This document shows positions 47,652-54,010 of a stretch of 64,000 nucleotides of DNA, in pieces; position 1 is the first letter of the stretch; each line of letters starts with the position of its first letter. The stretch is taken from positions 1 to 64,000 of the forward strand of contig JAHJAA010000073.1 in the NCBI GenBank assembly GCA_018814305.1, written 5' to 3'. Under the pieces are notes generated by a model. That model had not been told where the DNA came from and searched no databases. It was given only the letters and a program-made list of their open reading frames with translations. The DNA is from Pseudomonadota bacterium. Its GTDB lineage: Bacteria > Desulfobacterota > Desulfobulbia > Desulfobulbales > JAGXFP01. Both the position numbers and the translations under genes were made by a program.

Positions 47652-47728
47652 GGGCGGGTAGCTCAGCTGGATAGAGTGTTGGCCTCCGAAGCCAAAGGCC
47701 GCGGGTTCGAATCCCGCCTCGCCCACCA
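47652..47728 (+). tRNA. tRNA-Arg (CCG anticodon)
   Basis: The 77-nt sequence folds as a complete cloverleaf. GGGCGGG pairs with CTCGCCC in the acceptor stem, the anticodon arm is TTGGC-CTCCGAA-GCCAA with CCG at the centre (reads CGG, arginine), the T arm is GCGGG-TTCGAAT-CCCGC, and CCA is encoded. It marks the left end of an AT-richer, gene-poor stretch, a typical integration site, though no attachment repeat is visible. Confidence 0.97.
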
Positions 47729-47761
47729 GCCAATAATCCGGTGTCATTCGGAATTGTTCAG

Positions 47762-47794
47762 AAAGCCCTGAATTCTCGGGGCTTTTTCTTTTTT
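47762..47794 (+). terminator. Terminator after tRNA-Arg
   Basis: AAAGCCC (47762-47768) and GGGCTTT (47779-47785) form a 7-bp stem with a 10-nt loop, followed by T-rich TTCTTTTTTT. It lies 34 nt after the tRNA and is the likely end of its transcript. Confidence 0.85.
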
Positions 47795-48112: not shown

Positions 48113-48499
48113 TCAGGAGAAGGGGGATGTCAAGATATCAAACCTAATCTTGGGTGCGAATGCGTCTTTTTTATTCGTCGTTTCTCTCATTTCCTGATTT
48201 GTCTCTGAGTTTCGGTCAGCACCACCAATCATGACCAGAGAAGGCATATCTCCCCCGCTCTTTATGGTATGCATGCCGTCATCGACCAAGTAGATCTTTG
48301 TTGAGCACTCATTTTTCCCTCCGGTCGTTTTAATTTTAACGAATTGACCCTGTGCGTACAATTTTGGGAGAGATTCGGTCCACCTCCTTCCAGCTAAGGC
48401 ATTCGCCTCTGTCCACCTAATACAATCTAAAATTGATCTGTTCGTGAAGCCAACCTGTGCCGATTGAAATGATATGAAAATTTGATGAAAAATGGGCAA
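48113..48499 (-). CDS. Doubtful hypothetical protein
   Basis: This is a 128-codon frame in the gap between tRNA-Arg and the three-gene cassette. It starts with TTG without a ribosome-binding site and has no internal early ATG. The translation has no signal, membrane segment or motif I can recognise. It could be a remnant of a transferred gene or a chance frame. It is listed because about 930 nt here would otherwise be empty. Confidence 0.2.
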   Translation of the reverse strand: MPIFHQIFISFQSAQVGFTNRSILDCIRWTEANALAGRRWTESLPKLYAQGQFVKIKTTGGKNECSTKIYLVDDGMHTIKSGGDMPSLVMIGGADRNSETNQEMRETTNKKDAFAPKIRFDILTSPFS

Positions 48500-48663: not shown

Positions 48664-49284
48664 ATGGTTGCAAGACTATTCTTCAGCAGTCTTGACAACA
48701 GATTGCACGGAAAAGCAAATGCCGTCATGGAGTTTCTCATGTCGATCCACAATAGTCGCAAACATTGCGGAGACTTATTTTGCGGGAAATGTGGTATAGC
48801 AAGGGAAATCCTAGAGAATATTTCGGATTCCGATAAACAAATAATCCATGAAATCCTTTCTTCCATTTCAATTTATGAATTAACTGATTTCGGAGTTTTT
48901 GAACCACTCATCCATAGAATTGACGCAAAAGGATACATCTCGGTTTTCCAACGAGCAGCTAAAGAAATCAATTCAGGAAACATCAGAGACATAGATTTCT
49001 TTCTCCATATGACTAGATCCCGCCTAAGAAAAAAATTTGAAAACTTTATCGAAAATTTCCCAGATATCCTTAGACGAGGAACCGAACTGGCAATTACCAC
49101 TAAAGACTATTCCCTTGTGGAAACTGTTATCTTGATACTTGAGGAGGAAGCTCAAAAATATCCTGAACTAATCAGTACCGCTAGGGAATACGCACAAAAT
49201 GACCAGCAGATGCAACGCGTCCTCTACAACACTCTACGACGCATAAGGCCCGAAATGAGAAATTTCGCAGGTAAAACCAACTGA
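48664..49284 (+). CDS. Cassette gene A: helical protein with Cys cluster, unknown
   Basis: From ATG 48664, with GGGGG nine bases upstream, the product is 206 aa; the frame is open to 48529 but that part is atypical. Near residue 35 it has a Cys/His-containing segment HCGDLFCGKCG that could bind zinc, then a long helical, charged remainder with no membrane segment. No homologous family is recognisable by eye. It is AT-rich compared with the flanking core genome and lies 24 nt upstream of gene B on the same strand, so the three genes A-C probably form one operon. A defence or stress role is inferred only from the company it keeps. Confidence 0.75.
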   Translation: MVARLFFSSLDNRLHGKANAVMEFLMSIHNSRKHCGDLFCGKCGIAREILENISDSDKQIIHEILSSISIYELTDFGVFEPLIHRIDAKGYISVFQRAAKEINSGNIRDIDFFLHMTRSRLRKKFENFIENFPDILRRGTELAITTKDYSLVETVILILEEEAQKYPELISTAREYAQNDQQMQRVLYNTLRRIRPEMRNFAGKTN

Positions 49285-49308
49285 AACTTGACAGAAGGAA
49301 GCGGAAAG

Positions 49309-50043
49309 ATGGTTCAGTTGAAATATTTTGGAGATGATAGAGATTTTTTCAAATACGACCTTCTCTCATCAGTTCTCTCAGAAAACATCTTTGCAACCTA
49401 CGGTTTTGTCCCTATGCTCACTTTTCATCGAGAAGACGGTGAAGGAAATATCACTCCACGACACATAAATGGCAAATCCGGGGAATTGTACCGCTTCATC
49501 AGTGCTTGTCCGAATAGGGACCTGAATCATTGGCAAAAGTGGATGCAAAGATTTTCTGTCAACTACCAAACAATTCAACCGGTTAACGAAACATTCTTCA
49601 GGCATCATACCAGAGCAAATTACTGGCAAAAGTTTAAAGATATTATCAACAGTGATTATGCTCTAATTTTTTTTGACCCCGACACAGGTTTACAGGCTGG
49701 CAGAAAGTCCACTATCAAACCTGGCGATGAGGAAAAGTACATCCTAAACCAAGATCTCCTGTTATTAACAAACAAACTCGCTTCCACATCGGTATATGTT
49801 ATTTATCAGCACTTACAGAGGAACAGAAACAAACGTGAAGAAGATATAATACGTAAAATAACAGCCTTGCGAGAGTCATATGTTGGTCTGCAAGTATCTG
49901 TGTATTACGAAAACGATCTGTCTTTTTTCTTCTTAAGCAAAGAAGATGTATTACATTCAAAAATTAACTCCATTTTGGCAAAATATTACCGAAATAGCAC
50001 AGTAAAGCAGAAAAATGTGTTTCTGCAGGTAACTGCCGCTTAA
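49309..50043 (+). CDS. Cassette gene B: conserved protein with a DPDTG motif
   Basis: From ATG 49309 the product is 244 aa (TTG 49288 is in frame, site GGAAG fits 49309). It opens with LKYFGDDRDFFKYDLL, has YALIFFDPDTGLQAG near residue 115 and SVYVIYQHLQRNRNKREED near 160, then an alternating strand-helix end. The layout DPDTG followed by YQHL is reminiscent of Rossmann-like methyltransferases such as the RlmJ or three-Cys-motif-partner groups, where a DPP-type motif sits in the same place; this is only an impression. It lies between genes A and C with short gaps. No signal peptide. Confidence 0.75.
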   Translation: MVQLKYFGDDRDFFKYDLLSSVLSENIFATYGFVPMLTFHREDGEGNITPRHINGKSGELYRFISACPNRDLNHWQKWMQRFSVNYQTIQPVNETFFRHHTRANYWQKFKDIINSDYALIFFDPDTGLQAGRKSTIKPGDEEKYILNQDLLLLTNKLASTSVYVIYQHLQRNRNKREEDIIRKITALRESYVGLQVSVYYENDLSFFFLSKEDVLHSKINSILAKYYRNSTVKQKNVFLQVTAA

Positions 50044-50077
50044 ACAAAAATAAAAAATCGACCCAAAGGTGATACGA

Positions 50078-50824
50078 GTGGACTGGGAAGAGCTTTTGAA
50101 ATTATTAAAGAACAATGTCAAACCCGGTCAAATCACCACGTATGGTAACCTGTCTGAATTTTTTTATGGTGCGAGAAATGCTGCCCAGGCAATTGCTGCC
50201 ATGCTGAATGCAGCTGTAACTGCTGACCATCAAAATCGCATTCTGACCAATCGGGTAGTTACTACAAATGGGTTAATACGTATCGATGGACAAAAAAAAC
50301 AACTCCAGAATGAAGACATCTCATTCCGACCAGATGGCCGAGTTGATTTTCAACAACATCCTCCGTTGAGATTTGAAGAAGATCCTCAAGAAGAGAACGA
50401 CCCAGCTGATATAGAGATTCATAGCGAACAAGCCACAGCAAAACCAATACATACTTCTTCAAGTACAGCTTACACTTATTTTAATGAAATCATTGAACAA
50501 ATATCCCAAAACCCTCCTGCGGAATTCATGCATATATTGAGAGAAATTATTTACGAAGAAGGCTTGTTCGCCAATAAGATTGTCAATGCAATTCAGCAGA
50601 GATTAGCCAACCATTTCAATACCCCAGAGGACGATGGAATATTTAATTTGATTCAGCTGGCAGAGAAACACAATCAATTGATGCCTGGAGCGATCAATTT
50701 GGCTCACACTATAAGAAAAGAGAGGAATCTCATTATTCACAACGAAATTGTTCCTACTGAGTTAAGAGGAAGAAATTTGATCGTGCTAACAGCTGCATTA
50801 CTGCTATGGCCCCAGCTTCCCTGA
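50078..50824 (+). CDS. Cassette gene C: alkyltransferase-like domain fused to HEPN-like domain
   Basis: From GTG 50078 (AGGTG six bases upstream) the product is 248 aa. Residues 1-95 look like an alkyltransferase-like (ATL) winged-helix domain: VKPGQITTYGNLSEFF and ARNAAQAIAAML match the MGMT fold, while the Cys of PCHR is missing (NRVVTTNG instead), so it should bind DNA without transferring alkyl groups. A linker (about 96-130) is acidic. The C-terminal part (130-248) is helical and holds RKERNLIIHNE, an R-X4-H motif (about Arg216, His221) as in HEPN/DUF4145 domains, many of which are RNases in defence systems. The domain calls are inferences from short motifs. Confidence 0.7.
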   Translation: MDWEELLKLLKNNVKPGQITTYGNLSEFFYGARNAAQAIAAMLNAAVTADHQNRILTNRVVTTNGLIRIDGQKKQLQNEDISFRPDGRVDFQQHPPLRFEEDPQEENDPADIEIHSEQATAKPIHTSSSTAYTYFNEIIEQISQNPPAEFMHILREIIYEEGLFANKIVNAIQQRLANHFNTPEDDGIFNLIQLAEKHNQLMPGAINLAHTIRKERNLIIHNEIVPTELRGRNLIVLTAALLLWPQLP

Positions 50825-51253
50825 AAACTGGACTGACTAACCAAGATATCTCCCTAAGATTTTGACAAGGGAATAGTCAATATATCTCTTGAGTATGTTG
50901 TCTCGAATGTTTGGAAATTTGCTGACTTGCAACGCTACTAGTTTTGCTGGTGTCAGAGTACCATTAAAGGCGGCCGGGAAGTCCAGAGAGAAAACCTGCA
51001 AGGATAAAAATTTTGAAGTGGGAAATATCGTTTCTTCACCTCTTTATTTTGTGATAGTCTAAAGATAATCTTTCGGATAGGTAAGTATTTCGGACGTTGA
51101 TGCCTTAATAGTCATGGCGGAAAATTTCCAAATATTTAGCATAAAGCTTGGCTTCAACGGATTTCAAAATCGGAATCCGATCTTGAAATCCGTTTTTGAA
51201 AAAGCGATTTTCTATCACCTCGTCAATATATTTAAAAAATTGGAGGAAATATT
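50825..51253. other. AT-rich intergenic region before gap
   Basis: About 430 nt after the cassette without a supported gene. Its main feature is the extended hairpin at 51156-51199 (listed separately). The rest is AT-rich with no recognisable tRNA or repeat. Possible promoters are too numerous in AT-rich sequence to choose one. Confidence 0.5.
51156..51199 (+). terminator. Extended hairpin with T-tract upstream of gap
   Basis: AACGGATTTCAA (51156-51167) pairs perfectly with TTGAAATCCGTT (51183-51194), and an inner ATCGGA/TCCGAT stem fills the middle, so almost the whole 39 nt is paired. Ts follow. It ends the upstream transcript or acts as a leader attenuator for gap, 55 nt further on. Confidence 0.7.
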
Positions 51254-52273
51254 ATGTTTAAAGTCGCGATTAATGGTTTTGGGCGAATAGGAAGACTTAC
51301 ATTTCGAAAAATCTTTGGAGATGATCGTTTTGAAGTTGTGGCAATTAACGATTTAACAGAGCCAAAGATGCTTGCTCATCTTCTGAAGTATGACAGTGTG
51401 CAGGGGCGTTTCGGAGGACATACTGTCGGTTCTGATGGTGATTATCTTGTCATTGATGGCAAAAAAACCAGAGTTTACAAAGATGCAGACCCTAAGAATC
51501 TTCCTTGGGGCAATCTTGGGGTGGACATTGTTTTAGAATGTACCGGATTTTTCTGCTCAAAGGCCAAGAGTCAAGCGCATCTTGATGCAGGTGCAAAGAG
51601 GGTCCTTATTTCAGCTCCTGCAGGCAGTGATCTTCCAACCATTGTTTATGGCGTGAATCATCATACCCTGAAAAATGATGCTCTCATTGTCTCCGGTGCA
51701 TCCTGCACAACCAATTGCCTTGCTCCTATGGCAAAGGCACTGAATGATTATCGTGAGTTAAGAACAGGCTTCATGACTACGATTCATGCATATACGGGCG
51801 ACCAAATGCTTCTTGATGGACCGCACCGTAAAGGTGATTTTCGCCGGGCAAGAGCCGGTGCAATAAACATTGTGCCTAATTCAACCGGTGCTGCGAAAGC
51901 TATCGGCCTTGTCATTCCTGAACTTGACGGAAAGCTTATCGGATCAGCACAACGCGTACCAGTTCCTTCTGGTTCCATCACTATTCTTGATGCTACCTTG
52001 AAGGATGAGACCGAGACTGTATCTGTTGAAGGAATCAATGAAGCAATGAAAAAGGCTGCTGATGAATCCTTTGGCTATTCTGACGAGGAGCTGGTGTCAA
52101 GCGATATAATTGGTATTAGTTATGGTTCACTTTTTGATTCTACTCAAACACTTGCTCAGCGTTGTGGAACCAAGATTTATGAGGTTAGAGTTGTTTCCTG
52201 GTATGACAATGAAATGAGCTATGTCAGTCAATTAATCAGAACATTAGGCCTTATGGGGAGTTTAATGAAATAA
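51254..52273 (+). CDS. gap: Glyceraldehyde-3-phosphate dehydrogenase, type I
   Basis: GAPDH oxidises glyceraldehyde 3-phosphate to 1,3-bisphosphoglycerate in glycolysis and the reverse in gluconeogenesis. The 339-aa product begins with the NAD-binding [17 protein letters not shown] and has the catalytic Cys in [17 protein letters not shown] and the His in TIHAYTGDQ; the C-terminal [16 protein letters not shown] is intact. ATG start behind TTGGAGG. It is AT-richer than the core genes to the right and left and stands alone after a long hairpin, so acquisition by transfer is possible. No pgk or tpi is nearby. Confidence 0.97.
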
Positions 52274-53973: not shown

Positions 53974-54010
53974 AAAAAGGGAATCAAGCAGTTGGCTTGA
54001 TTCCCTTTTT
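53974..54010. terminator. Bidirectional terminator between PilZ gene and next gene
   Basis: AAAAAGGGAATCAAGC (53974-53989) and GCTTGATTCCCTTTTT (53995-54010) form a perfect 16-bp stem with a 5-nt loop, with T-runs on both strands. It separates the rightward PilZ gene from the leftward small secreted protein gene. Confidence 0.93.

Follow-up and report, generated by a model that had tools for sequence, protein, structure and literature searches.

A tentative conflict or stress operon of three AT-rich genes in a Desulfobulbales genome, with a predicted methyltransferase and an ATL-HEPN-like protein

Within the 64,000 nt of contig JAHJAA010000073.1 that were analysed (the window), the three genes A, B and C may constitute a small operon acquired by horizontal transfer, which would serve in conflict or stress by combining nucleic-acid modification with RNA cleavage. 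We put the probability of this reading at roughly 0.35. The function of the operon, the catalytic activities, the substrates and the joint action of the three proteins are what we infer, along the following lines. B would be an RlmJ-like SAM-dependent methyltransferase that puts a mark on adenine in RNA or DNA. C would be the effector, and its ATL-like domain would sense the state of the DNA or its bases (unmodified, damaged or phage-modified). The HEPN domain of C would then cut RNA, so that growth or phage development is halted. A would bind zinc and, as a helical adaptor, link B to C or hold the two in check.

The three genes are codirectional, with gaps of 24 nt between A and B and 34 nt between B and C, and a Shine-Dalgarno-like stretch lies 5' of each start (Table 1). 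This agrees with the orientation and spacing given in the preliminary description. Distant homologues exist for each of them and, thus, A, B and C are regarded as real genes and not as chance ORFs. In searches of Pfam, NCBIfam, PADLOC and PHROGs, no match of any of the three exceeded the curated cut-off, and no PDB relatives were found by sequence for B or C, the two tested. A minus-strand ORF of 128 aa at 48113-48499 had no relatives and was left out of the module.

Table 1. Features of the A-B-C locus; positions are counted from the first letter of the window.
Feature	Position	Strand	Properties
tRNA-Arg(CCG)	47652..47728	+	935 nt upstream of A, not adjacent to the cassette
Terminator-like hairpin	47760..47787	+	between tRNA and cassette; -16.7 kcal/mol, z -3.9
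Gene A	48664..49284	+	ATG start, 206 aa
Gene B	49309..50043	+	ATG start, 244 aa
Gene C	50078..50824	+	GTG start, 248 aa
Domains of C			ATL/MGMT-like DNA-binding domain (residues ~4-86), acidic linker, C-terminal HEPN-like domain
Codons of RNLIIH (C residues 216-221)	50723..50740	+	HEPN motif of the canonical Rx4H form, unchanged in 5 relatives
Near-perfect 19-nt inverted repeat	51156..51194		between C and gapdh; -25.8 kcal/mol, z -4.9

The GC contents of A (0.396), B (0.380) and C (0.403) are well below that of the window (0.503), and GC as well as GC3 are near-identical among the three. The cassette had been described as AT-richer than its flanks. This is correct for the window as a whole, but the right flank is about equally AT-rich, with 0.434 for gapdh, 0.415 for the DUF6901 gene and 0.443 for the PilZ gene. 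Thus, the AT-rich pocket is wider than the cassette and extends from ~47.8 to 54.4 kb. Between 47800 and 54400, GC ranges from 0.36 to 0.48, and the rest of the window consists of ribosomal and other housekeeping genes. The tight codirectional spacing, the Shine-Dalgarno-like sites and the foreign-looking, AT-rich pocket argue for a conflict or stress operon. The inverted repeat behind C is a possible terminator.

The tRNA-Arg gene, previously placed next to the cassette, does precede A, but it is not a close neighbour. Given its distance, the strong intervening hairpin and the fact that no second copy of its 3' end was found anywhere in the window, the link between tRNA and cassette is weak. 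An island integrated at the tRNA was rejected as there is neither an att repeat nor an integrase and the tRNA is too distant. In a search for an empty site, relatives that carry the erpA-like gene of the left flank had no tRNA within the 1.5-kb flanks.

Apart from its place in the trio, B reveals a widespread family with a predicted methyltransferase fold, for which neither Pfam nor NCBIfam holds a model; Pfam fits no member checked. It comprises 66 relatives in GTDB genomes from many bacterial and archaeal phyla. The signatures of the family are GDxxDxxKY, FFDPD[TN]G and YQH, and its conserved positions are G8, D9, D12, K15, R102, F121-x-D123-P-D-x-G127, E149 and Q167-H168, while B itself carries Asp at position 149 where the family has Glu. 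In the N-terminal motif, G8, D12 and K15 were conserved in 53, 57 and 56 out of 58 sequences, respectively, and D123, P124, D125 and G127 of motif IV are invariant (58/58).

The AlphaFold2 model of B, calculated with 58 sequences, reached a pLDDT of 91 and a pTM of 0.91 and has a Rossmann methyltransferase fold. In a Foldseek search against the PDB, the eight best matches were all RlmJ/DUF519, followed by other methyltransferases. The matches to RlmJ had E-values between 1e-5 and 2e-4 with a probability of 1.00 and TM-scores of 0.40-0.50. RlmJ (DUF519/RsmJ, PF04378) is the 23S rRNA m6A2030 methyltransferase. Hence, the methyltransferase-like nature suspected for B is borne out as far as the predicted structure goes.

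Besides being the best fold match, RlmJ shares with B the GxxxDxxK N-terminal helix (motif X) in the same spacing, namely G8-x3-D12-x2-K15 in B and G11-x3-D15-x2-K18 in the E. coli enzyme, and an Asp-Pro in motif IV, where D123-P124 of B is found at the place of D164-P165. In RlmJ, the catalytic K18 is brought into place by D15, and motif IV contains the essential residue D164 (PMC3814359). The predicted fold of B together with this motif spacing argues for the conflict operon. B differs from RlmJ in motif IV, as the unusual, invariant DPD[TN]G of its family replaces the m6A catalytic motif, which is DPPY/F in RlmJ. The identity between the two is below 15%, and the B family is patchy and mobile and has the additional conserved R102, E149 and QH. 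Profile comparisons of B with RlmJ, RsmD and MGMT by hhalign were all negative, with a probability of 1.9% for a shallow RlmJ profile; thus, sequence homology of B to RlmJ is not claimed. The model supports a methyltransferase fold with RlmJ as the nearest one, and not membership of the RlmJ family. The negative profile comparison and the lack of the DPPY tyrosine count against the conflict operon.

The active-site Cys of MGMT lies in PCHR[VI]. In ATL proteins, which consist of an MGMT-like domain, this Cys is replaced, typically by Trp, and the Arg finger is kept. When 6,473 ORFs were ranked with an MGMT/ATL profile, the N-terminus of C came second after the genuine MGMT with an E-value of 0.003, and the next unrelated ORF followed at 1.7. 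C residues ~13-65 align with the TYG...RVV core of the ATL/MGMT domain (PF01035) and, like ATL, have no catalytic Cys. LTNRVV stands in place of PCHRVV, so that Thr occupies the Cys position. Differences to ATL/MGMT are this Thr in place of Cys or Trp, a Gln that apparently stands in for the base-flipping Arg finger, a Pfam score below the cut-off and the fusion to a HEPN-like domain.

The C-terminal domain of C is predicted to be all-helical and matched a profile of HEPN relatives, which come from a few genomes of the same phylum, with an E-value of 1e-11. The catalytic HEPN motif is Rx4-6H, in which the Arg is followed by N, D or H (PMC3710099), and DUF4145, one of the HEPN families, is frequently linked with restriction modules (PMC3710099). 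Sub-threshold matches to DUF4145 were obtained for two relatives of the C domain (E-values 0.0017 and 0.0053). The all-helical prediction, the RNxxxH motif and the C-terminal position are common to C and DUF4145-type HEPN domains (PF13643, CL0291), while C itself has no Pfam match and is fused to an ATL-like head. The combination of ATL-like and HEPN-like parts, as read in the preliminary description, agrees with these matches of the two halves. The ATL-like match and the intact HEPN residues argue for the conflict operon; the AlphaFold2 model of C, unusable with a pLDDT of 39, counts against it.

If active, such a reader-plus-RNase architecture would link the sensing of base state to RNA cleavage. 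A fusion of ATL-like and HEPN domains was not found in the literature searched. The wHTH-HEPN-REase proteins of the EC042_2821 type (PMC3710099) are similar to C in that a DNA-reading winged helix is joined to a HEPN domain with an active site, but C has no nuclease domain and there are no R-M genes at the locus. A new type of modification-linked immunity is quite improbable. In it, an RlmJ-like methyltransferase with DPDxG as a variant motif IV would mark nucleic acid, an ATL-like reader fused to a HEPN RNase would kill or arrest the cell in response to an incorrect mark or base state, and a zinc adaptor would stand between them.

HEPN RNases are common toxins (PMC3710099) and the Rx4H motif of C is intact; C could accordingly be the toxin of a toxin-antitoxin-like module, to be neutralised or modified by A and/or B. 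The small size of the genes and their tight spacing would suit such a module. However, known HEPN toxin-antitoxin modules use a nucleotidyltransferase or small antitoxins, whereas B has a predicted methyltransferase fold, and neither A nor B accompanies the HEPN relatives of C. This explanation is considered unlikely.

A role in housekeeping or repair would have B modify rRNA like RlmJ and C act as an ATL-type sensor of alkylation damage, with a HEPN-like domain that only binds protein. The fold match of B to RlmJ, the relationship of C to ATL/MGMT and the fact that the genome has no PF04378 (RsmJ) match of its own are in line with it. It is opposed by a very patchy distribution: out of 395 genomes of the phylum, homologues were found in four for B, in five for C, one of them spurious, and in three for A. 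Moreover, the HEPN catalytic residues are intact and C has apparently Gln for the Arg finger and Thr for Cys. On balance, this role appears rather improbable.

A is a zinc-finger-like helical protein, and its N-terminus contains the Cx4CxxC cluster (HNSRKHCGDLFCGKCG). The Cys cluster had been noted before and is conserved in one relative, L012, which has an extension C-terminal to its A-like domain; this extension matches no family and may be a nuclease. The C-terminal helical domain of A is common to two remote proteins. Another relative, L011, shares this domain only. The gene of the L011 protein (98 aa, 1411-1707) has a TPR ORF on one side and a gene for an HNH-PNP-EAD7 effector on the other, the product of which matches many PADLOC effectors. 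EAD domains are part of NTP-dependent conflict systems (PMC7159879), and the A-like protein is possibly an undescribed helical adaptor of such systems. Although the location of this relative next to these two genes recalls STAND/EAD conflict systems (PMC7159879), the cassette itself has neither an NTPase nor an EAD. An A-like gene was found inside an xdh-like gene cluster, and A had no match in plasmids and phages.

The conflict operon is further favoured by this A-domain relative beside an effector and by the occurrence of B relatives on a plasmid and on a prophage-like contig. One relative of B is located on a mobilizable plasmid. In the prophage-like contig (L079, 6000-12100), the B-family gene lies beside a gene combining ParB-like and DNA-methylase parts, with a terminase and a serine recombinase nearby. 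At L002 (40-2175), the B-family gene directly follows a PD-(D/E)XK-like gene, which lies between it and an Mrr restriction gene two genes away. B itself gave no match in plasmids and phages by tblastn, nor did C in plasmids. Viral contigs gave no match when B, C, A or the C domain served as query; only the B alignment found a match, on one prophage-like contig.

A co-occurrence of the three genes elsewhere, proposed earlier as a check, was not found in the collections searched, which within this scope is the outcome that the preliminary description had named as refuting its reading. There was no second A-B-C trio, as A or C were absent from all 66 B loci, and neither was detected in 16 genomes with a B homologue, among them the genomes of the three nearest ones (43-50%). 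The searches for A and C used single-sequence queries, which reach fairly close relatives, so that diverged partners could be missed. No recurrent neighbour of the B relatives could be identified; they lie among housekeeping genes, and their neighbours include gltD, hydrogenase genes and ligA. The absence of another trio, of a recurrent partner of B and of a PADLOC match speaks against a conflict operon.

These results fit the main rival explanation, namely that A, B and C are three independent nomadic genes that became adjacent in an insertion-prone AT-rich pocket. They would lie on one strand and may be transcribed together, but would have no common function, each working alone as its relatives seem to do. 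It carries a weight nearly equal to that of the conflict module, the toxin-antitoxin and housekeeping explanations being less likely. The closest B homologues occur by themselves, with neither A nor C, the C-type HEPN proteins turn up as single insertions at diverse sites, such as behind xseA or next to a transposase-like gene, and the A-like gene of the xdh-like cluster points in the same direction. In contrast, the short gaps, the separate Shine-Dalgarno-like sites and the near-identical GC and GC3 are better explained by an operon. The picture suggested by the sequences is one of nomadic genes that may have come to form one operon here.

As for the defence system proposed originally, the domain assignments hold up well, but the step from them to a three-gene system is weak: no PADLOC match was found, the window otherwise seems to consist of housekeeping genes and the B relatives are isolated, with genes of no evident connection around them. 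No defence genes were recognised elsewhere in the window, a minor part of which was covered by profile scans. A conflict role for the trio is plausible.

In the relatives of C, a DUF5710-like domain and a coiled coil precede the C-type HEPN domain. Such proteins are encoded at L006 (991-1848), L007 (1495-2337), L117 (934-1812) and L118 (1498-2367), and their family is inserted after xseA or elsewhere within one bacterial class. A further candidate relative, L009, was rejected since it overlaps lepA/lepB on the opposite strand.

The gapdh gene at 51254-52273 sits in the foreign-looking pocket and has a GC3 of 0.34. Two further GAPDH-like genes with 53% and 35% identity to it are present in the genome and, therefore, this copy may be acquired. 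A perfect 16-bp inverted repeat at 53974-54010 (AAAAAGGGAATCAAGC) with -23.3 kcal/mol and a z of -5.0 is probably a bidirectional terminator.
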